Virus record (IMG/VR): IMGVR_UViG_3300042691_035114
Span: 1-40,801 of that record
Reading direction: 5' to 3' (one strand)
Length of the DNA: 40,801 bases
Source: a virus
The translations under genes were made by a program, and so were the position numbers. Below the pieces are notes generated by a model that saw only the letters and a program-made list of their open reading frames with translations, had not been told where the DNA came from and searched no databases. Every line of letters starts with the position of its first letter. Position 1 is the stretch's first letter. Positions 17,000 to 39,104 of the stretch are shown piece by piece.

Positions 17000-17650
17000 A
17001 TGAGTTACTTCAGAGAACTACCAGATATTGAATATCAATCACAATTACCTACAAAAAACTCTTCACTTAACTATGTGAGAGTTAAAAACTTATTCAGAAG
17101 AGTAAAACTACGTGATGATTTACAAAATGTATTTACGTTATTTAATAAGTATCAAATTAAAGATGGAGAAAGACCAGACATAATTGCAGAAAACTTATAT
17201 GGATCTTCAGATTTAGATTGGGTAGTTATACTTTCTGCAAATATTATAAATTTAAGAGATTCTTGGCCTTTATCTGACAAAGATGTTTATAAATTTACTG
17301 AAGAAAAATATGGCCTTGAAAAAATGTATAAAGTAAAATATTACCAGACAACTGAAGTAAAAAACTCTAAAGGATTTTTAATTTTACCAGAAGGAAAAAT
17401 AGTAGACCAAAACTTTACAATAACAGACCCTGATAATCCTCGCATTACATTAAATCCAGTTGTTGGCATATCATATTATGATTATGAAATAGAAAAAAAC
17501 AATAAAAAAAGAACAATTTATATATTAAAACCAGAGTATGTTCAACAATATTTAAATGATATTCGTTCTATTATGTACTATGAAAAATCTTCACAGTACA
17601 TTAATACAAAATTAATCAAAACGGAAAATACTAGAAATACATCACCATAA
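17000..17650 (+). CDS. gp53: gp53 baseplate wedge subunit
   Basis: 216 aa (T4 gp53 is 196). The signature is near the N-terminus: 'DIEYQSQL', then 'GERPDIIAENLYGSSDLDWVVILSANIINLRDSWPLSDKDVYKFTEEKYG', corresponding to T4 'PEELANAIYGNPQLYWVLL'. This LysM-like wedge protein joins six wedges round the hub. Last gene of the plus operon, with its end overlapping the convergent Mom-like gene by 9 nt. No plus-strand terminator is evident, so transcripts may read antisense into the next gene. Confidence 0.85.
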   Translation: MSYFRELPDIEYQSQLPTKNSSLNYVRVKNLFRRVKLRDDLQNVFTLFNKYQIKDGERPDIIAENLYGSSDLDWVVILSANIINLRDSWPLSDKDVYKFTEEKYGLEKMYKVKYYQTTEVKNSKGFLILPEGKIVDQNFTITDPDNPRITLNPVVGISYYDYEIEKNNKKRTIYILKPEYVQQYLNDIRSIMYYEKSSQYINTKLIKTENTRNTSP

Positions 17651-18229
17651 GAGTTTTAGATTTTTATCGTATACTAATACATAACGGTGCTTGCGGGAGC
17701 GGTCTTTCCATTCTCCTTCAGCACCTTTAATTTTTCCTCTAGAGTGTTTAGTTCCGTCTGCATAGTAGAAATCTTTTTTTGGGTCTGTGAGTCCGCAATA
17801 TTTAAAATTACAAGCACGATAGATTGTACCATTATGGAAATCACTATCAGCGTAAGAGATGATTGCTTTGACTTCAGTATCCTTTCGTAACTGTTTAATC
17901 GCTCTCGAAACGAACCAAGAAGTGATATTATGCTCTCCTTGTTGGGTGATAGGATGTATACAAAGTCGTGAAAGTTCAAAGAGTCCTTCTTGTTCATTTC
18001 TTGCTAAACCAAATGCTCCTTTTGCGATTTCTGGTACTGGAAGTCCAGTAAAAATACAAACTCCTAGAAGACCACCAACATTCAAAGGACTGAAATGATT
18101 CTTCTTAAAAAGTCCGTAATTATAACCAGACTTGAATCCTTTTGAAATATCTTTAAGATAGTGGTACTCTAGGAGTAGTTCTTCTGCTTGTTTTTTGGAA
18201 ATCTTATCAATATAATAATCAGATTTCAT
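17642..18229 (-). CDS. Mom-like DNA base-modification protein
   Basis: 195 aa. 'LLEYHYLKDISKGFKSGYNYGLFKKN...VGGLLGVCIFTGLPVPE', 'LFELSRLCIHP', 'WFVSRAIKQLRKDTEVKAIISYADSDFHNGTIYRACNFKYCGLT' and 'DRSRKHRYV' follow the phage Mu Mom pattern. The pattern is an early HYLH/HYLK, an ELxRL strand, then SYAD...GTIYxAxNWxYxG. Mom proteins have a GNAT-like fold and convert adenine to an N6-acetamido-type derivative that blocks restriction. Here it would shield phage DNA. Single-gene unit behind an extended -10 promoter, convergent with gp53. The exact base product cannot be told from sequence. Confidence 0.72.
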   Translation of the reverse strand: MKSDYYIDKISKKQAEELLLEYHYLKDISKGFKSGYNYGLFKKNHFSPLNVGGLLGVCIFTGLPVPEIAKGAFGLARNEQEGLFELSRLCIHPITQQGEHNITSWFVSRAIKQLRKDTEVKAIISYADSDFHNGTIYRACNFKYCGLTDPKKDFYYADGTKHSRGKIKGAEGEWKDRSRKHRYVLVYDKNLKLLW

Positions 18230-23251: not shown

Positions 23252-23280
23252 AAAAAAAGGAGGGGATCAACCCTCCTTTA
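23252..23280 (-). terminator. Intrinsic terminator after the DUF4278 mini-operon
   Basis: The minus strand reads AAAGGAGGG-(6)-CCCTCCTTT followed by T-rich sequence. It begins 3 nt after the stop of the 33-aa gene, with a strong 9-bp stem. Confidence 0.9.
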
Positions 23281-23282
23281 CT

Positions 23283-23384
23283 TCAAGCAACTTGTGGTTG
23301 CTTTGCCATATTCAGTTGTGCATTATGGAGGAGTTGCTCCTTCTTTGCTTTTTTCTTGAGATATCGAACGAAGTAAGTATTCAT
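23283..23384 (-). CDS. 33-aa basic peptide
   Basis: Starts MNTYFVRYLKKKAKKEQLLH, then NAQLNMAKQPQVA. A strong ribosome site (AGGAGGGG, about 6 nt before the ATG) and ATGA overlap with the upstream gene argue that it is translated. N-terminal part is an amphipathic, strongly basic helix. Unknown function. Confidence 0.7.
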   Translation of the reverse strand: MNTYFVRYLKKKAKKEQLLHNAQLNMAKQPQVA

Positions 23385-23518
23385 TTGTGCCCCTCCTTTA
23401 CAAACTTAACACCACGATAGGTTTCGTTGTATTGTTGGGGTTGCTGCATCATTTGTTGCTGATACTGAATACGCTTTTCAGTATCATACTCGATACCACG
23501 ATATACGACTTTTGACAT
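23381..23518 (-). CDS. DUF4278-like 45-aa protein
   Basis: Starts MSKVVYRGIEYDTEKRIQYQ and ends YNETYRGVKFVKEGHK. Two 'YRG' motifs at either end (VVYRGIEY and ETYRGVKF) are the hallmark of the cyanobacterial/cyanophage DUF4278 family. Good AAGGAG ribosome site. First gene after the NtcA-type promoter and structured leader. Function of the family unknown. The arrangement suggests control by host nitrogen status. Confidence 0.72.
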   Translation of the reverse strand: MSKVVYRGIEYDTEKRIQYQQQMMQQPQQYNETYRGVKFVKEGHK

Positions 23519-23560
23519 TAGGTTTCTCCTTAGTTTTTTAAGTTAAAGAGCGTTCCTTCA

Positions 23561-23618
23561 GTCGGCGTTTGCGTTCGCTATTTGCGAATAGCGAATGAAC
23601 GATCCGTTCCGCGTCGGC
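23561..23618 (-). other. GC-rich structured 5' leader with hairpin and GCCGAC direct repeats
   Basis: About 60 nt with G+C well above the surroundings. On the minus strand, GCCGAC...GGAACG occurs twice (GCCGAC copies 52 nt apart, plus-strand 23561-23566 and 23613-23618). Between them lies a perfect 9-bp hairpin with loop of 4 (TTCGCTATT-TGCG-AATAGCGAA, 23574-23595). A smaller TCTGA...TCAGA hairpin lies upstream (23628-23643). It is part of the leader of the DUF4278 transcript. No poly-T, so not a terminator. Looks like a regulatory leader or an inserted small hairpin element. Confidence 0.5.
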
Positions 23619-23657
23619 TTACTTCCGTCTGATTTTTTTCAGATGAACGATAAAGGT

Positions 23658-23710
23658 ATTATACCTTATTGTAAGAATTTATATAAGTTTTATTGTAACA
23701 TTTGTTACAA
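23658..23710 (-). promoter_or_regulatory. NtcA-type promoter for DUF4278 mini-operon
   Basis: The minus strand has a perfect palindromic TGTA-N8-TACA (23693-23710), 21 nt, then TACAAT (23673-23668), fitting the cyanobacterial NtcA-activated layout GTAN8TAC-N20-24-TAN3T. A second, consensus -10 TATAAT follows at 23663-23658 without a good -35. Transcription would start near 23651-23661, giving a leader of about 135 nt. Confidence 0.65.
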
Positions 23711-23731: not shown

Positions 23732-23760
23732 AAAAAAATACCCGGAAATTTTTTCCAGGT
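23732..23760 (-). terminator. Intrinsic terminator after the 117-aa gene
   Basis: Minus strand ACCTGGAAA-(3)-TTTCCGGGT, one mismatch, followed by ATTTTTTTG. It lies about 10 nt after the stop at 23771 and closes the glutaredoxin/small-gene run. Confidence 0.8.
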
Positions 23761-24126: not shown

Positions 24127-24711
24127 TCAAGAACGCCCTCCCCATTTAATATCTGGATAAGCTTCTGAAACAAGTTCTTTCGTAATTTTATATTTGCTCT
24201 GAAGTTTTTTATCTTTTATTAAAATCAAAAGTTCTGCTTCTAATGGATGAAGTCCCTGTAGAAGATTAATAAACATAGTTTCTCTTTTTAAAGAACTCAA
24301 AGTAGAATTTCCACCTTGTACAAAATTATAGAATATTTTATATTCTTTTCTAATGGTAGTTCTTCCTTGATCATTTGCACCAAGAGAAGCTGATTTCATT
24401 TCATCCATTTTTGAAACTGCATCATTAATCTTATCGCTAACAGTTCCACTAAAAGAATTTTGCTCCCCAACACTTGCATAAGGAACAGGACCTTCTGGAA
24501 GTAAAGTAATTACACTTTCATCAAAGTTCCAAATAAAAAGTGATTTTAAAGAAGGATCTTCGTATTGCTTTAAAATTTCAATTTTTTTGAGATTTGTTTT
24601 TTGCTTAGAAACAAAATTTAAAATCTCAAAAATAAATGGATTGCTAGGCAATTCTTTAATTGTTTGTCTTGAAGATGTAGTTTTACTCTTCGTTTTCGTT
24701 ATCGTCGTCAT
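24127..24711 (-). CDS. Conserved phage protein (DUF6433-like)
   Basis: 194 aa from the ATG at 24711 (MTTITKTKSKTTSSRQTIKELPSNPFIFEIL). The frame could also begin at a TTG at 24732, deeper in the upstream gene. The mid region 'SLFIWNFDESVITLLPEGPVPYA' and the C-terminal 'LQGLHPLEAELLILIKDKKLQSKYKITKELVSEAYPDIKWGGRS' match a family common in T4-like marine phages. No known function. It overlaps the membrane-protein gene by 29 nt. Confidence 0.72.
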   Translation of the reverse strand: MTTITKTKSKTTSSRQTIKELPSNPFIFEILNFVSKQKTNLKKIEILKQYEDPSLKSLFIWNFDESVITLLPEGPVPYASVGEQNSFSGTVSDKINDAVSKMDEMKSASLGANDQGRTTIRKEYKIFYNFVQGGNSTLSSLKRETMFINLLQGLHPLEAELLILIKDKKLQSKYKITKELVSEAYPDIKWGGRS

Positions 24712-24913
24712 AATCGTAATCAGTGTTATCAAATCTAAAGGCTATAACTTCATCAGGAATTAAATTACCTTGTTGATCAAACATTTCTGGATGAGGTCTT
24801 GGTATTTCCCGATAATTCATCATGTATTCTCTGGCAACCCAACCACCTATTATTCCTACTATAAGAAACAATACGGTTAAAAAAGAACCAAATACTAGAC
24901 TAACTGCTAACAT
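24683..24913 (-). CDS. Single-pass membrane protein, conserved in cyanophages
   Basis: 76 aa. Residues 3-27 (AVSLVFGSFLTVLFLIVGIIGGWVA) form one transmembrane helix, followed by 'REYMMNYREIPRPHPEMFDQQGNLIPDEVIAFRF' and an acidic Asp/Glu tail (DYDYDDDNENEE). AAGG 8 nt upstream supports the start. Probably N-out or N-in inner membrane anchor with a cytoplasmic acidic tail. Function unknown. Confidence 0.78.
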   Translation of the reverse strand: MLAVSLVFGSFLTVLFLIVGIIGGWVAREYMMNYREIPRPHPEMFDQQGNLIPDEVIAFRFDNTDYDYDDDNENEE

Positions 24914-25350: not shown

Positions 25351-26676
25351 TTAAAATCCTAAATGTTTTTTACGTACAAAATCTAAATTATAAAATGTAT
25401 AAGATAAAGGTAATTGATCATTATTAAATGGGTACTGGTATGGATTAGTATTAACCCAATCAATACCAGTATGCCATCGAGGTCCCCATTTATAGTAAAT
25501 ATACCACATTTCATTTAAAATGCGACTATGGTGCAACTTACTTTCTAAGGAACGATCAACTCTCCAAGTTTGTGATCCGGTTGTTTCATAATCTTTTTCA
25601 CCATGATAATATGGATAATCAACATTAACTCGTTTAATATTAGATAACATTGTTCTAATATAATAGTCAACATCTTCAACATAAGCAGGATAACAATTTT
25701 CATCAAATAATCCACATTCTTGAACAACCCAATCCTTTAATAGAAAAATGTCCCAAGCTCCTTTGTTACCATGGACCATACCAACATCTAAGTCCTTTGC
25801 CTTAGAAAGCATATTTTCTAAAAATCCTGGAGTAAATGCAACATCATGATTAGAAATAATCCAATATGGTGCATTCATACCACACTTAATAGACATATTC
25901 CAAGATCCAGCAACACCAATATTTGCTGGGAGATGGCAAACTTTAATTTCTTTAATAAATTGGTAAGTTTCTTTTGCCAGATTATCCAAATCTTCAGTTA
26001 ATTCTCCCCTTCCGTTATTATCAAATATAAAAACTTGATCCACAGGATAATCGATACTATCAATTAACCTTTTAATCCATTCAAAACCATTAACAATAGG
26101 AATACTAATAATAGGAATTGGAGGTTTTACTGGATTTTTTTCTTTTTTTAATCCCCAAAAATATAAATCATGAGACTCATTATTTACTTCAAATGAAAAG
26201 TGATCAAAATAGTCTTCAAAAGCAATATGTTGACGAAAATCATTTTCATTTAAATTTCTATAATAATCCCAACCAATATCAATAGTTAATGGGGAATCAC
26301 TAGGACTTGTTCTTGAAGTTCCATGTTCCATTCTACCATCACTAGCGCAGGTAAAAAATACCAACCCACCAGGACGGCAAAGTCTAATCATGTTTGTAAA
26401 AGTTTCAACCCAATATGGATTATGTTCAAAACATTCAAGAGAACAAACTACATCATAAGTATTATCTGGAGCATCATATTTTTGTCCTTGACAAACTATG
26501 TCAACTCCATCCCCTGGTCCAACATCAATACCAATATAAGAACAATCTTCAAAAAAATCTCTTACTGTTCCATTAACATTTAGACTACCAACTTCTAAAA
26601 CAGATTGTTCTTTAAAATAATTAGATGCTTTTCTTTTAAGATTTTCTACAAATCTCTTTTGTTCATTATGTGCCAT
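25351..26676 (-). CDS. Fused SAM methyltransferase - GT2 glycosyltransferase
   Basis: 441 aa. Residues ~20-165 are a class I methyltransferase: 'VLEVGSLNVNGTVRDFF' (motif I), 'YIGIDVGPGDGVDIV', 'DVVCSLECFEHNPYWVETFTNMIRLCRPGGLVFFTCAS'. Residues ~172-400 are a GT2-type glycosyltransferase: 'IPIISIPIVNGFEWIKRLIDSIDYPVDQVFIFDNNG', 'HLPANIGVAGSWNMSIK', 'YWIISNHDVAFTPGFLENML' (DV in place of DxD), 'YVEDVDYYIR'. Such two-domain fusions are common in phage and cyanobacterial surface-polysaccharide loci. Substrates unknown. First of the glycan run next to the small-gene block. Confidence 0.82.
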   Translation of the reverse strand: MAHNEQKRFVENLKRKASNYFKEQSVLEVGSLNVNGTVRDFFEDCSYIGIDVGPGDGVDIVCQGQKYDAPDNTYDVVCSLECFEHNPYWVETFTNMIRLCRPGGLVFFTCASDGRMEHGTSRTSPSDSPLTIDIGWDYYRNLNENDFRQHIAFEDYFDHFSFEVNNESHDLYFWGLKKEKNPVKPPIPIISIPIVNGFEWIKRLIDSIDYPVDQVFIFDNNGRGELTEDLDNLAKETYQFIKEIKVCHLPANIGVAGSWNMSIKCGMNAPYWIISNHDVAFTPGFLENMLSKAKDLDVGMVHGNKGAWDIFLLKDWVVQECGLFDENCYPAYVEDVDYYIRTMLSNIKRVNVDYPYYHGEKDYETTGSQTWRVDRSLESKLHHSRILNEMWYIYYKWGPRWHTGIDWVNTNPYQYPFNNDQLPLSYTFYNLDFVRKKHLGF

Positions 26677-26681
26677 AAATT

Positions 26682-29600
26682 TTACTCAACATTAATATTC
26701 ATTTTTTTTAAGTTTTCATCAAGTCTTTCTTTATGCACCTCATGTATCTCATAATTATTTTTAATATCTAATAGTAAAGATTTTGCTTCATCAACTTTAC
26801 CCCACCACCAAGCACCAACAGCCTTTTCAAATAACAGTCCATATTTTCCAGGGTATTCAACATCAGTTCTAAGTGGTTCCAAATTAAAATCACAATAATT
26901 AAGAGCTCTGTCAGCGTGAATATAACAGTCTTGCCACCATTGTCTTTTTTCAGCAAATCTACTTAATAAGAAGTAAGCTTCTGGTCTATTGGGAAGTAAA
27001 CATAAAGCTTGCTCAAGTAAAGATTTTGAACTTCCATCACGAGTACCTTGTTTAGTATAGCAATATGATGCTCTTATTAAAGACTCATATGCCAAGGTAT
27101 TATCAGTTGCTCTTTCTGCACATCTTAAGAAATAAGATACTGCTGGAGCAGTATGACTTTCATTTTCATACCACACTCCAAGATTAAAGTTATGTTCTGG
27201 ATTTTCAGTATCTAAAGAATACTTATTTAAAAGATCACTTAATTGTTGGTTTTTAGTTCTTTTCATATCTAAAATACCTGGAATAAGGTATTGTTCCACA
27301 TTTGGTAAACTAAAAATTATCGAAGGAAGATCAGTAATAGGATACGGTTTTAATACAATATTAACATTACCAGATGGAGAAGTTAAATTATTTTCAAAAT
27401 TATACTTTTCCATATATTCCCACAATTCATTTTGAGAATAATCTTTACCCAAGAAAGAATTTAAATCCTCATCATAATGGCAGAAGGATTTAAATTTATT
27501 AATCCTGTTATTGTTATCACCCATCCAACTAAAATGCCATCCTAAATCTTGGCAAATTTCTCCATTATGAGTTACATATCTAATTTCATATCCTCGTTTC
27601 ATATATTCTGCCCTAATTTCAGTTGGAGTATTAGTTTCCAAATGTTTTTTAAAGCACATAAACATAGATTTATTCCAAGGAGAAAAAGATCCGTCCAATT
27701 TATATGCTCGGAAATCAGCTCTACCTTCAAGATGAACAAGAGGAATCTTGAATATATAATCCCTATTATTCTTTGCAGATCCATGTATAAATGGGATATT
27801 GTTGGGATTAATGATTTCATCACAATCGCTAATTATAAAGAATGTATCATCATCAAATTCGGATAAAATACTGCAGAGATAATCTCTCTGAATTCTTTCT
27901 CTACTTCCTATTTTCTGATCTGGATTAAAGTGCAAATCATAATCTGAAGGATGTCCAGGATTAGAAAGGTCTGCTTCAATAACTTTTATTTTATTTCTCG
28001 GTAATCCAAGATCATCAATAACTTTATTACAACTATATTCTTTAGGAATTCCGCTGTGAGTATAATTACCATCAATAATTACAAACAAATCTACATAATC
28101 TCTAAGAAGTTTTACTCGCAGTTCGAGCAATTCTTTCTCATTAAAATATGTAAAACAATCAACAACTTTCGGGCGAGTAGATTCTGTTATATTCATAGAT
28201 TTTTTTTCAACAAAAAACTTAGGGGGTTCATTACTTTTTGATTTCCACCAGTCAGTAACTTTTTGATGTGAGATGTAATGATTTTTCTTTTGTCCATCAT
28301 TTACGTCATCATCTTTACCAACAAAGGTAGATTGATATTTAACTTCCTCAACAAATAATGGTATTGTATAGGATTTACCAAGACTTGCAAAAAGAATATT
28401 TTCAATCAAAGGCATGGTAGTTTGATTTGGAATTTCCAAACAATATCCATCATCACGAATATAAGTGTCTATTAATTTTTTTGCATAATTTCTAGTGATA
28501 AGATATGCAGTTGCTCCCCAATCATCCCAATACCTTTCTCTAAGTTCATAAGTATCATAATCTTCGCGTATTGTAAATAATTGAATACAATCTGCATCTT
28601 TGGGAATATTAGTTAAAAATTCTTTCCAAGTAAAATTCCAGTATTGTACTGTAATTAAACTTAAATCATCTTCACAAAAGAATCCATAATCCTCATTTGT
28701 AGTTTCATACCAAGTTTTTATTGCTTTCAAATGAGATACTACACAACCCTTTGTTCCCTCATTCAAACTGTCTACATACTTTCCATACACTACGTCATTA
28801 GATTCCGAAAATCTTTTAGAAATAATTGGTTTTGGAATTATACCATACACTTCAAATTCCGATTCTAAATTATCTCTTCTTTCTTGACTTTCTTCAAGAG
28901 AAATATAATAGACTGAAGTCAAATCATTTAATTTATCACTCATAATCTTTTCGGCAAAATAGTTTTGTTCATCTATTTTTTGAATATTCCATTTTGTTTT
29001 TGGTTGTACATAATAATTAATTATTTCTGCACACATGTTTTTATTATTTTTAATGTGTGTTTGAGAAATCCAATATTCCGTTTGCCATTTTTCTTCACCT
29101 TCAGGGAAGGAATCCAATTGTTTTTTTATTCCAGATTCAACAAAACCTTTAAAATTTTCAAATCTCTTTTTATCCGGATGTGGTATATGAATTACATTAT
29201 AATCATAGTTTAACTTTTTATGCTCAAGACCATACAGTTCTAATCTAGTGCAAATTTCATCATCTTCAAATGCATAATACTTTGTAAGATTCTCATTATA
29301 CCCACCAATAGAAAGTAAATTTTCTTTAGATACAAGAAGTAATCCAGTTAGATATTTAAAAAATTGACAATACGAATTAAAATAGGTACTCCATTCATCA
29401 AGTGTTAAACAAGTCAAATCAACCATCGAATTTCCAGTTTCTTTATCAATAAATTCTGGACTCTTAAAATTGTGTTTTCCAGAGACAAAGCTACTTTTAT
29501 CAACCGTATACTTTGAAAAAAAGTTTTCATACGGATTAAGTATATAATCAGTATCCACTTTTAAAATATAATCACCCTTTGCTAAACTAATAGCTAAATT

Positions 29601-29810
29601 TAAGGGTTGTGGCTGATTAAAATATTTTTGATCAGGGACACTAATAATTTTAATTCTTGGATCTAACTTTGTTAGATGATTAATTGGTTCATCAGAACTC
29701 CAATCAACTATAATAATTTCTTTTATACAATCAAAAAGTAACCAAGAACTAAGAGAAACTTTTAATGCATTTAACCGATTTTTACATGCACAAACTAAAG
29801 ATATGTTCAT
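26682..29810 (-). CDS. Multidomain glycosyltransferase: GT2 - GT25 - GT17 - TPR
   Basis: 1042 aa from ATG (a TTG three codons upstream is less likely). Residues 1-255: GT2, 'SLVCACKNRLNALKVSL', 'IIIVDWSSDEP', 'LKVDTDYIL' (DxD), 'EDDEICTRLELYG'. About 297-520: GT25, 'VYYISLEESQERRDNLESEFEVYGI', 'GTKGCVVSHLKAIKTW', 'FFCEDDLSL', as in LgtB/procollagen galactosyltransferases. About 545-840: GT17-like, 'VVDCFTYFNEKELLELRVKLL', 'FVIIDGNYTHSG', 'FFIISDCDEIINP', 'GWHFSWMGD'. About 855-1042: TPR repeats. Three catalytic domains of three CAZy families in one chain is unusual and suggests sequential addition to one acceptor. Acceptor unknown. Confidence 0.8.
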   Translation of the reverse strand: MNISLVCACKNRLNALKVSLSSWLLFDCIKEIIIVDWSSDEPINHLTKLDPRIKIISVPDQKYFNQPQPLNLAISLAKGDYILKVDTDYILNPYENFFSKYTVDKSSFVSGKHNFKSPEFIDKETGNSMVDLTCLTLDEWSTYFNSYCQFFKYLTGLLLVSKENLLSIGGYNENLTKYYAFEDDEICTRLELYGLEHKKLNYDYNVIHIPHPDKKRFENFKGFVESGIKKQLDSFPEGEEKWQTEYWISQTHIKNNKNMCAEIINYYVQPKTKWNIQKIDEQNYFAEKIMSDKLNDLTSVYYISLEESQERRDNLESEFEVYGIIPKPIISKRFSESNDVVYGKYVDSLNEGTKGCVVSHLKAIKTWYETTNEDYGFFCEDDLSLITVQYWNFTWKEFLTNIPKDADCIQLFTIREDYDTYELRERYWDDWGATAYLITRNYAKKLIDTYIRDDGYCLEIPNQTTMPLIENILFASLGKSYTIPLFVEEVKYQSTFVGKDDDVNDGQKKNHYISHQKVTDWWKSKSNEPPKFFVEKKSMNITESTRPKVVDCFTYFNEKELLELRVKLLRDYVDLFVIIDGNYTHSGIPKEYSCNKVIDDLGLPRNKIKVIEADLSNPGHPSDYDLHFNPDQKIGSRERIQRDYLCSILSEFDDDTFFIISDCDEIINPNNIPFIHGSAKNNRDYIFKIPLVHLEGRADFRAYKLDGSFSPWNKSMFMCFKKHLETNTPTEIRAEYMKRGYEIRYVTHNGEICQDLGWHFSWMGDNNNRINKFKSFCHYDEDLNSFLGKDYSQNELWEYMEKYNFENNLTSPSGNVNIVLKPYPITDLPSIIFSLPNVEQYLIPGILDMKRTKNQQLSDLLNKYSLDTENPEHNFNLGVWYENESHTAPAVSYFLRCAERATDNTLAYESLIRASYCYTKQGTRDGSSKSLLEQALCLLPNRPEAYFLLSRFAEKRQWWQDCYIHADRALNYCDFNLEPLRTDVEYPGKYGLLFEKAVGAWWWGKVDEAKSLLLDIKNNYEIHEVHKERLDENLKKMNINVE

Positions 29811-29842
29811 ATACTTCAAGTAATAAATTTACCTATCATACT

Positions 29843-30643
29843 TTATATAGTTACCCAATCTGGGCAGTATAAATCCTTGGTATCCCAGTTTTTCAAATCA
29901 CCAGAAAACCATTTTTTTGGTGCCACAACTTTTTTACTATCTGATAACCATGCACCCCACCAACTATAAGAACTGTTAGCAATAATATGATAATTACACA
30001 TACTCATCAAACACAAATCAATTAAAGTATTGTTAGATTTAGAAATTTTAAACCTATCATTCTTAAAGAAAAATTGTTTTTCACACCATTCTGGATCATC
30101 AGAAAAAACTATTACAGGAATATCTTCAGAAAAAATTTCTAAGGCAGATTGGTAATAATTTAAATCAAGTAAATGAAAATTTGAATCTGTTACATAATCA
30201 GTTCTACGTATATGTAATGAAATTATTTCCGAATCACCAAACATTCCATTAATATAAGTTTCACACATTTTATTGGTAAACTTACTAAAAGAAAAATCAT
30301 CTCTTATTTCACTTTCAATATGTTTAAAATATTTTTCGGTTTGAAAGTATCCAAATAGATTAATATCATCGGGACAATTATAAAATAATTCTTCATCAAA
30401 AGCAAAAGAAGATTCATCTTTTGTTTTATAATTTGTCATTCCAATTTTATTGTTTATAATATTTGGAAAATTGTATAAATTTACATCAGATGCTTGTACC
30501 CTTTCATCATTTGTCCCAAATATACCACACAAAGGAATGCAAAATTCATAATTATTTTGTGATGCAATTCCTTTTAATCCAGCATACTGGAACATTTGAT
30601 TTCCTAATCTACCTTTGTTTCCAAGTTTATTAAAAGATATCAT
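29843..30643 (-). CDS. GT11 alpha-1,2-fucosyltransferase-like protein
   Basis: 266 aa. Conserved GT11 blocks: 'GRLGNQMFQYAGLKGIA' (residues 11-27), 'HIRRTDYVTD' (144-153, HxRRxD loop that contacts GDP-fucose), 'FSDDPEWCEKQFF', and 'DLCLMSMCNYHIIANSSYSWWGAWL' (SxFSWWGAxL type). Full length for the family. Transfers L-fucose from GDP-fucose to a galactose-type acceptor. No GDP-fucose pathway gene is in this window, so the donor must come from host or other phage genes. Overlaps the upstream GH130-like gene by 4 nt. Confidence 0.88.
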   Translation of the reverse strand: MISFNKLGNKGRLGNQMFQYAGLKGIASQNNYEFCIPLCGIFGTNDERVQASDVNLYNFPNIINNKIGMTNYKTKDESSFAFDEELFYNCPDDINLFGYFQTEKYFKHIESEIRDDFSFSKFTNKMCETYINGMFGDSEIISLHIRRTDYVTDSNFHLLDLNYYQSALEIFSEDIPVIVFSDDPEWCEKQFFFKNDRFKISKSNNTLIDLCLMSMCNYHIIANSSYSWWGAWLSDSKKVVAPKKWFSGDLKNWDTKDLYCPDWVTI

Positions 30644-31632
30644 TCTTCAAAGATATATTGTTTTACAAATTTTTGAGAAACTCTAAGAAGATATGCAGCA
30701 TTATCTTGAAAACCAAAGGTCATTAAATAATCATCTCCATATTCACACATACCAACAGCAAATTCAATATTTGCATTTAAGAAAGAAAACTGTCGTGAAA
30801 CTTTAACTATATTCCAATCATTATCCCAAACAACAAACCTATGCCTATAGACACCATCCTTCCTTCCAGCATCACTTCTTGTTAGATAAGTTTCATGATT
30901 AAGACAGAATCTATGATTTTCATTATAAGGAATAATTTGAGAACCTCCACGAAGATCAATACATCCAAGATCTTTCCATTGAGTTAAAACAACTTGATCT
31001 GTGGTATTTTCTTCTAAATTATAACGAACTACTTCAGTACCATTAGTCCATTTGACAAAATGGAATGGCATATCAATAATTGGCATCCAATTTTTTTCAC
31101 AATAAGATCCTTCATCACCTTTATGTCCAGGTGTAGGAATTCGATATTGATTTATTTCTTTTACTGCACCATCTTCAGAAATTTCAATCTCAGAAAGTTC
31201 CATTCTTCCTGTTCCAATTTTATCTAAATCTCTACGTACACCACAAACATAAAGTTTTCCATTCCATCTAACAATTCTACAATCCTCAAGACCTACAAAT
31301 TCCCAAAGTTCTTTATCTGGAAATTTAGAAGTATCAATTCTTTCATACCACTTTAATTGCATATTATCATCTATTTCACCCATAACATTATTTGTTCTCA
31401 ATCTAACATCATTTTCAGGGTGAATATAAACTAATGGTCCCCAATGATGTTCAAATTTTCTTTTTTCAGAATGATATAATGTATAATTAATATTTCTAAG
31501 ATTTACTAAAATCCTTCCATTATCATTATAAATGGAAGGATTTGTAATTGCAGGTCCTTTTAAATATTGTGACGGAAAAAGTAATGGATGAATGCTTCCA
31601 CCGTTTTCTAACGCAAGTTTTACAAAATTCAT
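30640..31632 (-). CDS. GH130-like five-bladed propeller protein
   Basis: 330 aa. 'SIHPLLFPSQYLKGPAITNPSIYNDNGRILVNLRNINYTLYHSE', 'GLEDCRIVRWNGKLYVCGVRRD', 'SYCEKNWMPIIDMPFHFVKWTNGTEVVRYNLEENTT', 'LRGGSQIIPYNENHRFCLNHET' and 'FAVGMCEYGDDYLMTFGFQDNAAYLLRVS' resemble the propeller of beta-mannoside phosphorylase / GH130-type proteins. The E-D pair in 'GLEDCRI' is like the conserved E/D of the family. Possible role: hydrolysing or phosphorolysing a mannoside, or carbohydrate binding. Family-level call only. Confidence 0.6.
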   Translation of the reverse strand: MNFVKLALENGGSIHPLLFPSQYLKGPAITNPSIYNDNGRILVNLRNINYTLYHSEKRKFEHHWGPLVYIHPENDVRLRTNNVMGEIDDNMQLKWYERIDTSKFPDKELWEFVGLEDCRIVRWNGKLYVCGVRRDLDKIGTGRMELSEIEISEDGAVKEINQYRIPTPGHKGDEGSYCEKNWMPIIDMPFHFVKWTNGTEVVRYNLEENTTDQVVLTQWKDLGCIDLRGGSQIIPYNENHRFCLNHETYLTRSDAGRKDGVYRHRFVVWDNDWNIVKVSRQFSFLNANIEFAVGMCEYGDDYLMTFGFQDNAAYLLRVSQKFVKQYIFEE

Positions 31633-31633
31633 A

Positions 31634-31990
31634 TTAATAAATTTTAACCTCTCTATATATTGAGCAATTTTCTTCGTTAATTTTTTTCTTTATTTCTGCT
31701 CTTGTGTCATTATTTTTATAAACACTCCGAGCAAGTTGTATAAACTCTTCATCAAATTTTTGTTCTTTTTCTAGTATCCTCAACTTATTTTCAATTTTCC
31801 AAAGTTTTTTATTTACTTCTCTTAATTGATTCATATAATCTTGAGTATATATTGGTAGAGTATCTTTAATTTGATTAAGTTCATTAAGTTCCTTTTCTAC
31901 GTATTCATTATAACCCAAAAAAGATTTAATTTCAAGTATAGTAATCTTATCTAAAAGTTCTCCGACTGATACGGGAATTAATATTTTCAT
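31634..31990 (-). CDS. DUF6165-like protein
   Basis: 118 aa. 'MKILIPVSVGELLDKITILEIKSFLG' is the typical start of a small helical family (DUF6165) found beside glycosyltransferases in bacteria and phages, followed by 'ELNELNQIKDTLPIYTQDYMNQLREVNKKLWKIENKLRILEKEQKFDEEFIQLARSVYKNNDTRAEIKKKIN', a charged coiled-coil-like run. No enzyme motif. Its ATG overlaps the upstream gene's stop by 4 nt. Possibly an accessory or adaptor to glycosylation. Confidence 0.7.
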   Translation of the reverse strand: MKILIPVSVGELLDKITILEIKSFLGYNEYVEKELNELNQIKDTLPIYTQDYMNQLREVNKKLWKIENKLRILEKEQKFDEEFIQLARSVYKNNDTRAEIKKKINEENCSIYREVKIY

Positions 31991-33522
31991 AGAGGATTAT
32001 TCAAATCAAAGTTATTCCGAATAAACTCAATCAGTTCTTTGTTTTTAGATGCAACTCCAAGACCAAAAGTGTGAGTAAAGGTTACTTTTGGAAGATCCAG
32101 TTCATCAAAGAATTTCTTCACACCATATTGATTTCCATTCAGTTCTTCAATACAGGTATCGTGGAACAGTATCACACCGTTTTCTTTTACGAATGGACTC
32201 CAAGTTTCATAATCATGCTTAACTGACTCATATGCGTGATCTCCATCAATATGAAGAATGTCAATTTGCTTATCCCAAGTCTTTGCAACCTCATCAAAAA
32301 ATCCTTTGATGAAAGTTACATTGTCCTTCATAAACAGTTTCTCTTGCCTATTCAGAACATACTCATAAGATCCGTGATTTCCACCAGTAAATTGATCTCC
32401 TTCAAAGGTATCAACACCATAAACGTGTCCAACACGAGGCATCGCAAAGCAGAAGGTTGAGAATCCCCAATCAACTCCAAGATCAACAGTTACTTCTGGT
32501 TTGACTTGAGTAACTAACCATTCAGCAAACTTACGATGTCCTTTCCAACAAGAAGGAACATCTTCAAGATTAGTCAAGAACAATTTATCAATCGCATCAA
32601 TTCTTTCAGGCGATGAAAGCATATCTGGATTAAAACCAGTCGCAAAGATTGTGAGATTAGGATTATTCAATCTCTTGGAAAGTTCAAACAGATATCCAAA
32701 TGCTTGAGATAAATGGAAACCTCCCATATTCATTCCTTCACTAACTGCGTGGAAGGCATAGTTCATTCCTCGTTGCACATCACCCATACTCAATAGAATT
32801 TGACTGAGACGAATAAAAGCAATAATTCTAAAACTATCAAAGTATGGTTTAGATACATTCAAGAACTCTTGTCCATATTCAAGTGCCTTTTCAAAATTCT
32901 TGACATTATAATAATGGTTGAAAATAAACCAAATCCAATACCAGTTAGTTGGATCTTTCTTATGCTCTCGTTCACAAATATTAAAGTAGAATAATTCCTT
33001 ATCTACAGTCTTATTAATCTTCTTTGTAATTTTAATCGTTGTATCTACACCAACTTCATTAGGATACTCTTCTGTTGGAATAAAATTTGGAACTTCATGA
33101 ACTGCATTTACCCAAGTATAATTCTTAGTTCTATGAAAACGAGCATGAACCTCATTAGATTGAACGGGTTCATCAGTTCCATTATCATCATATCTTAAAT
33201 GACGGAATGTAGTGAATTCATCTGCAATTACACCAAATCCTTCTGGATGAAACTCATCAACATCCTCATTAAAATCAAGTGCAAATGCCCAATCAGTTTC
33301 TACATAAAAAAGTGCCTGATTTCTTGCAACTGAAAAATCAAACTCTTCACGAGTTTGTGGATGCACATAAACTTTAATACCAGAATCCTTCAGTAGTTGA
33401 ACTGTATCATCTGTACTTCCAGTATCAACTACAACTACATCATCAAACTTCTTTGTATTCTTGAGAAATTTTTCAATATTCTTTTCTTCGTTCTTTGCAA
33501 TTGCATATAATGTTACTTTCAT
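31987..33522 (-). CDS. GT2 glycosyltransferase - TPR - SAM methyltransferase fusion
   Basis: 511 aa from ATG at 33522 (ATGA overlap with the upstream stop, GGAG 9 nt before). The five-residue longer frame would begin at TTG. Residues 1-~200: SunS-type GT2, 'VTLYAIAKNEEKNIEKFLKNTKKFDDVVVVDTGSTDDTVQLL', 'FALDFNEDVDEF'. About 200-290: TPR-like helices ('ALEYGQEFLNVSKPYFDSFRIIAFIRLSQILLSMGD'). About 335-511: class I methyltransferase, 'VTVDLGVDWGFSTFCFAMP', 'VYGVDTFEGDQFTGGNHGSY', 'DILHIDGDHAYESVKHDYETWSPFVKENGVILFHDT'. Mirrors the MT-GT fusion at 25351-26676 in opposite domain order. Confidence 0.82.
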   Translation of the reverse strand: MKVTLYAIAKNEEKNIEKFLKNTKKFDDVVVVDTGSTDDTVQLLKDSGIKVYVHPQTREEFDFSVARNQALFYVETDWAFALDFNEDVDEFHPEGFGVIADEFTTFRHLRYDDNGTDEPVQSNEVHARFHRTKNYTWVNAVHEVPNFIPTEEYPNEVGVDTTIKITKKINKTVDKELFYFNICEREHKKDPTNWYWIWFIFNHYYNVKNFEKALEYGQEFLNVSKPYFDSFRIIAFIRLSQILLSMGDVQRGMNYAFHAVSEGMNMGGFHLSQAFGYLFELSKRLNNPNLTIFATGFNPDMLSSPERIDAIDKLFLTNLEDVPSCWKGHRKFAEWLVTQVKPEVTVDLGVDWGFSTFCFAMPRVGHVYGVDTFEGDQFTGGNHGSYEYVLNRQEKLFMKDNVTFIKGFFDEVAKTWDKQIDILHIDGDHAYESVKHDYETWSPFVKENGVILFHDTCIEELNGNQYGVKKFFDELDLPKVTFTHTFGLGVASKNKELIEFIRNNFDLNNPL

Positions 33523-34205
33523 AAGTATGTGCTCCAATCAATACAAGGTGATAAAAATTGCGAATGACAATGTGTAGAATAACCAGGAATGCTTGAGATT
33601 AAATTCCTTCCTTTCTTATGTAGTTCTAAAAATTTACCGTGGTCTGCAGAAGGTTCAAATCCAGTTGAGAAGTGTCTATGAATTTCTTTATCTTCTTTGA
33701 GTGTTTTAAATTTAACAGCAAACGTATTTGTTGTTGAAGGGGTTGGCATCCAGTGTGAATATTTTGTTGTCAGAACTTTAGTCATAAAGTCCTTATACAT
33801 CTCCTGATACTTATCTCCATGGTCGTACAATGTTGCATACTGAACTGGGAGGGTAAATGCATCTATGAGAGCCCTATCCCATTCTGGACGGTGTACATAG
33901 TCATCTTCAAGAAAATAGATGATTGTATCATCATCAAAGTCTTGGGAAAGAATATAGTCTAGTGTCTTACAAAAACTAGAACTTTCTTTACCACAGTTAA
34001 TTGCGATTGAACTTTCATCTTTGAGGAAAGTGTCTTCTTGTTTTCCATAACACTCATCAAAGATGATTGTATAGTTGGTAGTTTCTGGGTTGAGAGTGTT
34101 CTTGAAATTTTGGAATACTTTTTCTTTATCCCACCAATCTGGACGATTTGCTCCAGAAAGATTAACTTTGGATGTATAACAATGTCTTAAAAATACTTCA
34201 ATCAT
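33519..34205 (-). CDS. GT-A-like glycosyltransferase
   Basis: 228 aa. 'MIEVFLRHCYTSKVNLSGANRPDWWDKEKVFQNFKNTL' then 'YTIIFDECYG', 'TIIYFLEDDYVHRPEWDRALIDAF' (EDD acidic motif of GT-A enzymes), 'SHWMPTPSTTNTFAVKFKTLKEDKEIHRHFS'. The fold-level match to family-2-like phage glycosyltransferases is reasonable, but the exact family is unclear. Overlaps the sulfotransferase by 4 nt, in the middle of the glycan operon. Confidence 0.6.
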   Translation of the reverse strand: MIEVFLRHCYTSKVNLSGANRPDWWDKEKVFQNFKNTLNPETTNYTIIFDECYGKQEDTFLKDESSIAINCGKESSSFCKTLDYILSQDFDDDTIIYFLEDDYVHRPEWDRALIDAFTLPVQYATLYDHGDKYQEMYKDFMTKVLTTKYSHWMPTPSTTNTFAVKFKTLKEDKEIHRHFSTGFEPSADHGKFLELHKKGRNLISSIPGYSTHCHSQFLSPCIDWSTYL

Positions 34206-34984
34206 ATATTAAATTTATCATAAAGTTTAGTGTTTTCTTCACCAATCACTTCTTCGGGAGGTGGTGAAGTTCTTTGAAGTTTTGAACGAATTTGATGAAG
34301 ATTATCAATACCCCATTCATGATCTTTCTCTTCGGCACAAGTGTTAAAGATACTGAAAAAATCATGTGAATGTGTTTCTATTCCCAGAAACTCATAGATT
34401 TTATTCAATTCTCTTTCTGGTTTTTGTGTAAGATCGTTATAGTCTACCAAATGAATATTTGAACGATTATACGTTAATCCATAAACCAAGCTTTCATAGG
34501 GATCGCAGACATAATTCTTCCAGAGACATTCAATACGATTATCAGTATTGACTTCTTTTCCTTCTCTTCTCAAATGAGCATCTACAAAATTATCTGCTTC
34601 ATTATTTCTTTGAATGAGTAAAATATAAGAAGCAAGAACTTCACTTATTCTACGATTGGTTGCTATGATTTTTGGAGTTTGATGTAGAAACTTTTCAATA
34701 GAAGGTACATTCTTACACCAACCACGATGTTTGTCAAGAATACAAGGTTTCTCTATGTGATTATAGAAGTTTTCTAGAATAGAATTGTAAGTATTGTATT
34801 GAATTTGTTGCTTATCATAAGTGTATTGAAGATCAAGTTTAGAAAAACCTTCATCAATCCAACAAAGTAAATCTGCAAGTGGTGATGTTGGAGTTGCTTG
34901 TAACTTTGGATGTTGTGAAAGAATTGATCCAAGTAAAGTAGAACCTGATCTTGGAAGACCAGAAAGAAAGAATAATGTTTTCAT
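34202..34984 (-). CDS. Sulfotransferase
   Basis: 260 aa. N-terminal 5'-phosphosulfate loop 'FFLSGLPRSGSTLLGSILSQHP' (GLPRSGST at 9-16), then 'ILDKHRGWCKNVPSIEKFLHQTPKIIATNRRISEVLASYILLIQ' (3'-phosphate-binding R-S type region) and 'HLVDYNDLTQKPERELNKIYEFLGIE', standard for PAPS-dependent sulfotransferases. Transfers sulfate from PAPS to a sugar or peptide. A sulfated glycan in a phage locus would be unusual. PAPS is available in the host sulfur pathway. Confidence 0.8.
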   Translation of the reverse strand: MKTLFFLSGLPRSGSTLLGSILSQHPKLQATPTSPLADLLCWIDEGFSKLDLQYTYDKQQIQYNTYNSILENFYNHIEKPCILDKHRGWCKNVPSIEKFLHQTPKIIATNRRISEVLASYILLIQRNNEADNFVDAHLRREGKEVNTDNRIECLWKNYVCDPYESLVYGLTYNRSNIHLVDYNDLTQKPERELNKIYEFLGIETHSHDFFSIFNTCAEEKDHEWGIDNLHQIRSKLQRTSPPPEEVIGEENTKLYDKFNI

Positions 34985-34998
34985 AATGATAAAATAAT

Positions 34999-36180
34999 TT
35001 AGATGTAATCGTCTATGTATGTGATTGCTGTTGTGCTATTAGTTGAACTAAAAACTTGTTTCCAGTTGGTTCCTCCTAAGAATGTTGTGACTGGAATCAA
35101 TCTTTGAGTTCCTGTATTATCTCCAAGTTGACCTTGATTATTCCATCCACAATTCCATAGAGTTCCATCAGTTTTGATTGCTGCATTTGACACATTTGTC
35201 GTGGAAACTTGTTTCCAGTTGGTTCCCCCTAAGAATGTTGTGACTGGAGTGTTTCTTTGACTTGTATTATTAATTCCCAATTGTCCATTATAATTACGTC
35301 CCCAAACCCATAGAGTTCCATCAGTTTTGATTGCTGATGTAGCACTACCACCAGAAGAGACTTGTTTCCAGTTAGTTCCTCCTGCGAATGTTGTGACTGG
35401 AGTATTTCTTTGGGTTGTTGTATTGTCTCCTAGACCTCCATTAGCATTATTTCCCCAAGTCCATAAGGTTCCATCAGTTTTGATTGCTGCTGTTGATTGG
35501 AAAGCTAAATCTTGCCCGCAAGCAACTTGTTTCCAGTTGTTTCCTCCGGTAAATGTTGTGACTGGAGTGTTTCTTTGGGTTGTTGTATTGTCTCCTAGTT
35601 GTCCAGAACCATTACTTCCCCAAGTCCATAAAGTCCCATCAGTTTTGATTGCTGCTGTATGCCCATATCCACCAGCAACTTGTTTCCAGTTAGTCCCTCC
35701 CGCGAATGTTGTGACTGGAGTGTTTCTTTGGGTTGTTGTATTGTCTCCTAGTTGCCCGGAAATATTACGACCCCAAACCCATAAGGTTCCATCTGTTTTT
35801 ATTGCTGCTGTATGATTATATCCACAACCAACTTGTTTCCAGTTAGTCCCTCCCGCGAATGTTGTGACTGGAGAAAGTTTTAGAAATGTACCAACTTCCC
35901 CCAATTGTCCAAAATCATTACGTCCCCAACACCATAAGGTCCCGTCAGTTTTGATTGCAACTGCATGAGATCTTCCGCAAGAAACTTGTTTCCAGTTTGC
36001 TCCACCAGAAAGTGTAGTGACTGGAGTAGACCTGTTGACTTGTGTATTATCTCCCAGTCTTCCGTAAGAATTAGATCCCCAAGACCACAAGTTCCCTTGT
36101 CTAAAAGCATCAGCAGGTACAAAAACATCATCAAAAGAATATGCTACTCCGTTTTCTGTATAGTTATAAAAAACAGGCAT
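34999..36180 (-). CDS. RCC1-type seven-bladed beta-propeller protein
   Basis: 393 aa. After an N-terminal 'MPVFYNYTENGVAYSFDDVFVPADAFRQG' come seven 51-aa repeats 'LWxWGxNxxGQLGDNTxxxRxTPVTTFxGGTNWKQVxxGxxHTAAIKTDGT', the RCC1 blade. Blade 7 has LWNCG. The N-terminal phrase looks like a fibre attachment segment, so this is likely a virion adhesin, perhaps binding surface glycans. Strongly similar repeats at the DNA level. A paralogue starts at 40461 on the same strand. Confidence 0.85.
   Translation of the reverse strand: MPVFYNYTENGVAYSFDDVFVPADAFRQGNLWSWGSNSYGRLGDNTQVNRSTPVTTLSGGANWKQVSCGRSHAVAIKTDGTLWCWGRNDFGQLGEVGTFLKLSPVTTFAGGTNWKQVGCGYNHTAAIKTDGTLWVWGRNISGQLGDNTTTQRNTPVTTFAGGTNWKQVAGGYGHTAAIKTDGTLWTWGSNGSGQLGDNTTTQRNTPVTTFTGGNNWKQVACGQDLAFQSTAAIKTDGTLWTWGNNANGGLGDNTTTQRNTPVTTFAGGTNWKQVSSGGSATSAIKTDGTLWVWGRNYNGQLGINNTSQRNTPVTTFLGGTNWKQVSTTNVSNAAIKTDGTLWNCGWNNQGQLGDNTGTQRLIPVTTFLGGTNWKQVFSSTNSTTAITYIDDYI
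35020..36090 (-). repeat. Tandem 153-nt RCC1 blade repeats
   Basis: Seven imperfect 153-nt units. Several segments of 40 or more nt are identical between units, for example around 35680-35720 and 35833-35873. Related units recur at 40500-40790 in the second RCC1 gene, giving substrate for homologous recombination within and between the genes. Confidence 0.85.
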
Positions 36181-37979: not shown

Positions 37980-38649
37980 AAAAGCACGATGAATGATGTG
38001 GAATGATTTTTTGGTCTTCTAATATATTATTTACACGAGTTGTCCAAAGATCTGGAATTGAATCTTTGAATTTACTAATTCTAAAATAATGCCAGGTTGC
38101 TGGATATAGAGTTCCTGTTCCATACATTCCATAACCAGAAAGTTTATATTCTTCTGAACCATCATAACCAACTGGGTACATTAACTGATAAGACATTCCA
38201 ATTTGGTCTGCTCTTAAAGTTAAAAGTTGTGCTGTATCTATCTGCACTCCATTCTGCATAAACCAAGAAAAGTCTAGATTGCCTAATGCATTCCAGGCAT
38301 TTTTTGTTACAATTAAACAAGAAGCAGCAGCATAGATATGATTCCTCATTTGTGTATGAGAAATATTTTGAGCATTACCTACAAATGATTCATTTTCTAC
38401 TGCCCAGGAATATGATTTCTCCAGAAGTTCTTTATTGTGAGGAAGACAATCAATATCCAGAAAACAAGCAACCTCTTCCTTTTCCATCACAGAAGTCATA
38501 AACTTTCCGTGAGCAGTATAAACGCCGTCATAATCAGTAAATTCTTCACTATGATATTCAACTTCAATACCTATGTGATTACAAACTTTTTTATGGTCTT
38601 CTATCAGTTGCTTAGGAAGGTTATCTGTATAAAATGTATGAAATTTCAT
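37969..38649 (-). CDS. GT-A-like glycosyltransferase with DxD
   Basis: 226 aa. 'MKFHTFYTDNLPKQLIEDHKKVCNHIGIEVEYHSEEF', 'HGKFMTSVMEKEEVACFLDIDCLPHNKELLE' (DID motif), 'MRNHIYAAASCLIVTKNAWNALG', 'WHYFRISKF'. Compact single-domain GT-A enzyme; donor and acceptor unknown. Overlaps the oxygenase by 4 nt. Confidence 0.62.
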   Translation of the reverse strand: MKFHTFYTDNLPKQLIEDHKKVCNHIGIEVEYHSEEFTDYDGVYTAHGKFMTSVMEKEEVACFLDIDCLPHNKELLEKSYSWAVENESFVGNAQNISHTQMRNHIYAAASCLIVTKNAWNALGNLDFSWFMQNGVQIDTAQLLTLRADQIGMSYQLMYPVGYDGSEEYKLSGYGMYGTGTLYPATWHYFRISKFKDSIPDLWTTRVNNILEDQKIIPHHSSCFYEL

Positions 38650-39104
38650 AGGTAATCTGTATTAAAACTAATAATAATTCGTTCTTCTGTTTCTTCTTCT
38701 GTATAATGAACCAAATCACTTGAGAAGATGACTAATAATCCCGGATAAGGATTGATTGATGTATCTGGAAATATCAAAGGAGTTTTTCCAGAAATATAAA
38801 ATGCTCCACTTACAATACTTTCTTCGTGCTTATGTGCCTTGAGTTTATTTCCTGGTTGTGAAATATTGAACCAACTGTTGATAAACTTGAGTGGTGGAAT
38901 CTCATACTTATTGCAATATAATCTGACATATTGTTTGATGGTATTCTTTAATCCAGTCAGTTCTGGATACATTAGAACAGGCATTCCGTGATTGTAAGTA
39001 GAAGCACCTTTGCTTACAAGACCGTGAGAATTGGTTTCTATCTGTAAAAGTTTACTCTTAATAGTATTGAGATTCAGAAAAGATAAATCATACTCCTCTA
39101 TCAT
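38646..39104 (-). CDS. 2OG-Fe(II) oxygenase-like protein
   Basis: 152 aa. 'SWFNISQPGNKLKAHKHEESIVSGAFYISGKTPLIFPD' then 'PGLLVIFSSDLVHYTEEETEERIIISFN' is a short Fe(II)/2-oxoglutarate dioxygenase pattern (TIGR02466-like). H91/H93 and H133 are metal-ligand candidates, and R142 is the 2OG-binding Arg. Family members hydroxylate prolyl, lysyl or small substrates and are frequent in cyanophages. Context suggests a hydroxyl that could then be glycosylated. Overlaps the next gene by 17 nt. Confidence 0.72.
   Translation of the reverse strand: MIEEYDLSFLNLNTIKSKLLQIETNSHGLVSKGASTYNHGMPVLMYPELTGLKNTIKQYVRLYCNKYEIPPLKFINSWFNISQPGNKLKAHKHEESIVSGAFYISGKTPLIFPDTSINPYPGLLVIFSSDLVHYTEEETEERIIISFNTDYL

Follow-up and report, generated by a model that had tools for sequence, protein, structure and literature searches.

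A cyanophage leader that probably couples an NtcA-type operator to a duplicated glutamine riboswitch

A T4-like cyanophage carries, on one short segment of DNA, an NtcA-type operator followed by a duplicated glutamine riboswitch. On balance we favor reading this leader as nitrogen-responsive, with the operator and a glutamine-ON riboswitch acting as two sensors in series. The virus would then probably sense the nitrogen status of its host ahead of producing a very small protein of host-like type. The segment lies within a 40.8-kb virus record (IMGVR_UViG_3300042691_035114), the whole of which we analysed and call the window. Its gene content is T4-like (gp32, gp59, PhoH and baseplate genes), and its nearest annotated relatives are S-SRM01, S-SKS1 and P-SSM2.

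Several components of this leader are already known. NtcA-type boxes have been reported in cyanophages (PMC3037559), glutamine riboswitches in cyanophages (PMC9964418, PMC9602691) and in other marine phages (PMC9004378), and an NtcA motif together with a glutamine riboswitch and DUF4278 in Prochlorococcus (PMC6316151). In the literature consulted, we found no description of a fixed box-to-riboswitch grammar in phages, of a covarying 5′ hairpin or of a base pair joining aptamer copies.

Read along the minus strand from 23709 to 23283, the unit consists of the box TGTAACAAATGTTACA, TATAAATT, TACAAT, AAGGTA-TAA-TACCTT, a 99-nt element, CUCUUUA..UAAGGAG, and open reading frames (ORFs) of 45 and 33 amino acids. 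The individual features, with the basis of most assignments in brackets, are:

23740..23760, minus strand: intrinsic-terminator-like stem of the upstream gene, which isolates the unit
23694..23709, minus strand: NtcA-type box TGTAACAAATGTTACA, with its GTAN8TAC core at 23695-23708 (sequence and fixed place in relatives)
23676..23683, minus strand: TATAAATT, whose TAAATT (23681-23676) stands where other leaders have the conserved TANATA, 13 nt past the box, and is proposed as the actual -10 of the upstream promoter (leader comparison)
23668..23673, minus strand: TACAAT, the -10 of the original prediction, not conserved (leader comparison)
23658..23663, minus strand: TATAAT inside the hairpin, a possible second, sigma-70 -10 (TANNNT kept there in nearly all type I leaders)
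23653..23667, minus strand: RNA hairpin AAGGTA-TAA-TACCTT directly 5′ of the aptamer, missed by the original prediction (arm covariation)
23551..23649, minus strand: glutamine riboswitch element of 99 nt, with CGUUCAUC..GGAAGUA (copy 1) and GAAGGAACG (copy 2) as outer halves (RF01739)
23612..23619, minus strand: proposed P3 5′ strand AGCCGACG, whose last base is K = G23612 (K-M covariation)
23560..23567, minus strand: proposed P3 3′ strand CGCCGACU, whose first base is M = C23567 (K-M covariation)
23544..23550, minus strand: anti-RBS CUCUUUA (complementary to the ribosome-binding site (RBS), conserved across leaders)
23526..23532, minus strand: RBS UAAGGAG (pairs with the anti-RBS)
23381..23518, minus strand: 45-aa DUF4278-like ORF with two YRG motifs, P0001 (PF14105 and phrog_5049)
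23283..23384, minus strand: 33-aa ORF MNTYFVRYLKKKAKKEQLLHNAQLNMAKQPQVA, starting in an ATGA overlap with the 45-aa ORF (sequence)
23256..23279, minus strand: intrinsic-terminator-like stem closing the unit (sequence)

The original prediction had named a DUF4278 gene and a gene for a 33-aa peptide as the only genes downstream, and these are indeed the sole ORFs between the two terminator-like sites. It had also attributed oxygenase genes to the phage, and the window holds at least one 2OG-Fe(II) oxygenase gene (38646-39104, PF13759). Elsewhere in the window, a Mom-family protein (17642-18229, PF25680, E 7e-26), possibly a DNA-modification (anti-restriction) gene, adjoins gp32; glycosyltransferase, methyltransferase and sulfotransferase domains form a run with an RCC1-repeat protein (34999-36180) within 25351-36180; and a DUF2973-like small protein (24683-24913, PF11189, E 1.6e-4, slightly below the cut-off) lies near a glutaredoxin gene. 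A DUF2973-like protein is annotated in S-SRM01 too.

An NtcA-type box at fixed places before a glutamine riboswitch

The box is, as predicted, a perfect TGTA-N8-TACA palindrome, and it acts on the minus strand. The window contains GTAN8TAC 7 times where 6.1 are expected by chance, and TGTAN8TACA once where 0.86 is expected. Because the palindrome is at chance level in the window alone, relatives are needed to decide. We scanned viral contigs with aptamer-only patterns and removed near-duplicates, which left 103 non-redundant cyanophage leaders; one pattern that did contain the box, TGTAN8TACAN{35,55}CGTTCATC, gave mostly chance matches and added about one counted leader. In 80 of the 103 leaders, GTAN8TAC occupies either of two set positions upstream of the aptamer: -58..-62 in the 61 window-like leaders that we call type I, and -38..-40 in the 19 that we call type II. 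The remainder have a T4-late-type TATAAATA promoter (12) or another arrangement (11). Within type I, the flanks TGTA..TACA are kept in 51/61 leaders and the half-sites GTAAC/GTATC in 54/61, and by this comparison flanks and half-sites are under selection beyond the core.

The search of related phages that the original prediction had called for finds the same box kept in place; far from being missing from all relatives with the same gene order, it survives. Judged by these alignments, the box is a genuine conserved element despite its chance-level count in the window. Three window-type leaders (L028, L045, L194) have a degraded or displaced box with all else kept, and marine late-promoter leaders carry glutamine aptamers without a box, so the box is dispensable for riboswitch use. 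In the S-SRM01-type leaders L003, L110 and L558, a large, terminator-like GTAGC..GCTAC stem with a T-run stands upstream of the aptamer in place of the box.

The original prediction had missed glutamine aptamers at 23651-23547. By sequence criteria the leader is a type 1 glutamine riboswitch (glnA RNA, RF01739) in duplicate, for which glutamine binding is predicted. A short-region search matched copy 2 to RF01739 with 33.1 bits (E 1.6e-5) and copy 1 with 26.1 bits (E 0.0014), each under the gathering score of 35, and an Rfam scan of the whole window at curated gathering thresholds gave no match. Relatives score above that threshold (L060 with 54.8 bits, L086 with 39.6 and 38.6, L005 with 64.9). 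For type 2 (RF01704), the window gave no match at E up to 10, and relatives reached 16.3 (L060) and 15.1 bits (L086) against a gathering score of 33. The element begins with CGTTCATC and finishes with GAAGGAACG; of the two conserved core segments, copy 1 carries GGAAGUA and copy 2 carries GAAGGAACG. It resembles the known type 1 riboswitch in its core, CGUUCA..GACGGAAGUA..GAAGGAACG, in its cyanobacterial setting and in the DUF4278 gene downstream. It differs in that the phage element is duplicated, a base pair joins the copies and a hairpin with variable arms precedes them.

In a DNA search no other part of the unit was as well conserved as the leader, which is 88% identical in S-CREM1 and annotated there as 'riboswitch glnA'. 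The S-CREM1 glnA cis-regulatory RNA (PMC9964418) likewise has a box, at -38, a duplicated aptamer and a YRG peptide; the relevant section of that publication presents it as one Rfam match and describes neither the box nor pairing between the copies. Among T4-like cyanophages, intergenic GTAN8TAC boxes with 2-oxoglutarate as the proposed signal were described by Sullivan in 2010 (PMC3037559). Riboswitches are unmentioned there, whereas here a fixed spacing links the box to a single RNA element. Nine marine cyanophage leaders (L005, L006, L016, L017, L021, L029, L062, L072, L073) have single-copy type 1 aptamers right behind T4-late-like TATAAATA/CTAAATA promoters, and the short ORFs behind them, often MNTI(I/V)(Y/F)QL.., resemble the start of the 33-aa ORF (MNTYFVRYLKK..).

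Promoter spacing and the 5′ hairpin

The original prediction amounts to a canonical class II NtcA promoter, on in nitrogen-starved hosts, with TACAAT (23673-23668) as an ideally spaced -10. In the window the arrangement is literally there (TGTA-N8-TACA, 21 nt, TACAAT), and host type 2 glutamine-riboswitch leaders show a spacing of 22-23 nt. The spacing is not kept in relatives, however. The two closest leaders, L030 and L033, read TGCAAT and TCCAAT at this place, and TACAAT as a -10 is, in our comparison, private to the window. The GTAN8TAC-N20-24-TAN3T rule is not kept among type I leaders, with TAN3T at 20-24 nt in 2/61 when shuffling gives an expectation of 10.8. Type II leaders are unable to fit the rule: they lack the hairpin, and in most of them box and aptamer are only 24-27 nt apart. 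The box centre can then be no more than ~34 nt upstream of a start site that leaves the aptamer intact, and class II activation from -41.5 is geometrically excluded there. In window-like leaders, a class II start would fall inside the conserved hairpin. We consider classical class II NtcA activation unlikely, and the specific model with TACAAT as its -10 very improbable.

The conserved distances from the box are 13 nt to TANATA and 31-33 nt to TANNNT. The box-N13-TANATA arrangement is rigid and common to types I and II, in nearly all leaders. When 3.46 Mb of phage DNA was covered, 24 boxes with this spacing were found outside the seed leaders, and about 22-23 of them, judged by eye, precede further glutamine aptamers that our aptamer pattern had left unmatched. 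As boxes with this spacing nearly all precede glutamine aptamers, the grammar belongs to this riboswitch. In type I leaders, TANATA mostly stands 7-8 nt from the hairpin base; its distance to the aptamer is mostly 5-7 nt in type II, and 7-8 nt in leaders with a late promoter. Such distances are as expected for a -10 just before the first structured nucleotide, and we infer the start site there. The transcript would probably start ~7 nt after TANATA, and the RNA would consist of the short hairpin and then the duplicated, interlocked type 1 aptamer. One subgroup of leaders (L480, L488, L509, L524, L537, L547) has hairpin arms GTGTTA/TAACAC and aptamers that begin with CGTTCAAC, and keeps the box-N13-TANATA grammar.

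The hairpin is present in 58/58 type I leaders. Its native stem score averages 14.36, compared with 9.65 (sd 0.33) for chimeras that pair the left half of one leader with the right half of another, and its arms hold 34 G-T pairs against 9 A-C mismatches. Its universal presence, the excess of G-T over A-C and the loss of score in chimeras all indicate that the hairpin is selected as RNA. A palindromic protein operator around TATAAT is disfavored, with 31 different inner arms observed and complementarity lost in the chimeras. TATAAT-in-hairpin as a general cyanophage promoter was also rejected, its frequency being that of control hexamers.

The conserved TANNNT in the hairpin raises another possibility, namely that window-type leaders are transcribed from a sigma-70 promoter with this -10 and a TTG ~17-18 nt before it as the -35, the RNA beginning with the aptamer and NtcA acting from ~-51. 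TANNNT stays in place though the arms change, and the TTG is found in 54/58 type I leaders against 5/26 type II leaders. Because both elements are kept, many type I phages probably have a sigma-70 promoter as a second one. The window itself lacks the TTG (it reads TTATAT), the covarying hairpin would be left out of the RNA although its G-T bias marks it as RNA-selected, and such a promoter may coexist with the TANATA promoter instead of replacing it. We find it unlikely that the sigma-70 promoter is the working promoter of window-type leaders.

If TANATA is the -10, as we prefer, the box centre lies at ~-32, over the -35 region. NtcA activates from ~-41.5 and represses from sites overlapping the -35, the -10 or the start (PMC3898017, PMC6166021). 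The box at these distances fits no textbook NtcA-activated promoter, and its position over the -35 region of the TANATA promoter suggests repression or some non-canonical role. From motif and context together, we think it probable that host NtcA binds the box. That it represses from there when 2-oxoglutarate is high is a plausible proposal, to which we give slightly less than even weight; activation from the box is a more doubtful one. An activating role in the phage is nonetheless conceivable, as picocyanobacterial hosts have activator-spaced NtcA-type sites before type 2 glutamine riboswitches.

In T4 middle promoters, the activator substitutes for -35 contacts. A box over the -35 region, rigidly 13 nt from the -10 and at a spacing non-canonical for NtcA, recalls that design, and another CRP-family or phage-encoded factor might occupy it with no readout of 2-oxoglutarate. 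Against this, the box agrees with GTAN8TAC, the NtcA consensus in the literature, and it occurs together with a riboswitch for a nitrogen signal and a gene of a family linked to nitrogen. We regard such a factor as rather improbable, and retain host NtcA as the preferred ligand of the box.

Two aptamer copies and the base pair between them

Across 78 distinct long elements, position K of copy 1 and position M of copy 2 form G-C in 56 and T-A in 22, with no exception. Both states occur in type I and type II leaders, and neither K nor M varies together with any further variable column; two more pairs covary perfectly, and these are part of an ordinary hairpin. The helix closed by K-M, AGCCGACK/MGCCGACU with two C-A mismatches, lies where single-aptamer relatives have their P3 (AGC..GCU). 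The consensus core is kept only in the outer halves of the two copies, the inner halves being eroded, and in L060 the inner segment is absent with the helix kept.

The competing description is that of ordinary sequential tandem aptamers, folding and binding independently. Tandem glnA RNAs have been reported (PMC2864571), and there are two separate RF01739 matches in the window. Nearest-neighbour energies place the sequential fold below the nested fold by a mean of 2 kcal/mol, in all 41 elements tested. The P1 strands, being identical in both copies, are uninformative on nested versus sequential folding. Independent aptamers do not account for perfect covariation between copies with no other column linked, for a consensus confined to the outer halves, or for the higher score of L060 without its inner segment, and we consider them an unlikely explanation. 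The duplicated aptamer reads best as one nested element; with the energies favoring sequential folding and P1 silent, this reading stays an inference.

The joined element appears to be phage-made. Its 22-nt signature was absent from overlapping samples of 390 Cyanobacteriia and 201 family-level genomes except for a lone match with two mismatches, a level that a reversed control pattern also gave. More tentatively, we propose that two aptamers were fused head to head via a shared P3, with the outer aptamer intact but the inner permuted and eroded. They would lie behind a phage-specific promoter whose -35 region host NtcA contacts, a fixed spacing of 13 nt separating it from a -10 of phage type.

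Translation control and the host's nitrogen state

The CUCUUUA:UAAGGAG pairing recurs in nearly all leaders inspected, which suggests that the leader controls translation. For both cyanobacterial types of glutamine riboswitch, bound glutamine raises expression (review PMC6316151). It is likely that glutamine binding to the phage element would open the RBS within this pairing and allow the DUF4278 peptide to be made. If NtcA represses, both signals would agree, and the peptide would appear in hosts rich in nitrogen, in line with host gifB.

The 45-aa protein matches phrog_5049 (E 3.1e-11) and, over residues 4-38, PF14105 at 19.6 bits (E 0.0012; cut-off 25.3). The 33-aa ORF matched no PHROG, and in Pfam gave a sub-threshold hit to CHAT (E 0.045). 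Behind box-bearing leaders, the first ORF is a YRG (DUF4278-like) peptide in 70 of 76 assessable cases. Nearly all of the box-bearing leaders carry the aptamer in duplicate; behind late promoters a single copy is usual, followed by a short ORF of another type. In hosts, DUF4278 forms the N-terminal portion of IF17, a factor that inactivates glutamine synthetase, and DUF4278 genes are what usually follows glutamine riboswitches (PMC6316151). By length and content, the phage protein has no IF17-like C-terminal part beyond this domain; at only 45 aa, it should not be called an IF. As to the role of the peptide, tuning of the host's glutamine synthetase or of nitrogen flow is a guess. PirA was dropped as its identity, the literature tying DUF4278 to IF17 (PMC6316151).

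Two host systems offer the closest comparisons. The leader of gifB, the gene for IF17, also combines a GTAN8TAC box, a glutamine riboswitch and a DUF4278 protein, and the box is seen in 8/20 host type 1 leaders with a DUF4278 ORF (gifB-type). The host box, in contrast, covers the -10 and lies at -29..-31 relative to the aptamer, and the phage protein comprises the 45-aa DUF4278 unit alone. Picocyanobacterial type 2 leaders (RF01704) likewise have an NtcA-type site followed by a -10, and then a short hairpin that directly abuts a glutamine aptamer, and DUF4278 genes are often downstream, as in the phage (e.g. PMM1846; review PMC6316151). There the order is GTN10AC-N22/23-[TCA]ANNNT, then hairpin and aptamer, in 13/28 leaders. 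The host hairpin is GTAGCN4GCTAC, while the phage has GTAN8TAC-N13-TANATA, variable arms and a type 1 aptamer. In host type 2 leaders L625-L654, GTAGCN4GCTAC lies just 5′ of the CGTTCAC aptamer and fits both GTAN8TAC and a 5′-end RNA hairpin.

The original prediction also suggested that the phage may sense host nitrogen at this place. A box fixed in relatives and a glutamine riboswitch before a DUF4278 gene, a kind of gene under similar control in hosts, speak strongly for that idea; what is left unsupported is canonical NtcA activation with TACAAT as the -10. Phage sensing of host nutrient state, as opposed to altering it, is a largely untested question. Here one short DNA segment has elements for both cyanobacterial nitrogen signals, with NtcA as the route for 2-oxoglutarate and RNA as the route for glutamine, and dozens of phage lineages have kept it. 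A phage from one of these lineages, S-CREM1, is in culture and its host, Synechococcus CB0101, is known, which makes the nitrogen-sensing question directly testable. The joined aptamer copies, if true, are an unusual riboswitch architecture that is open to a simple compensatory-mutation test. Should the fused-aptamer reading hold, a single short leader would integrate 2-oxoglutarate and glutamine during infection.
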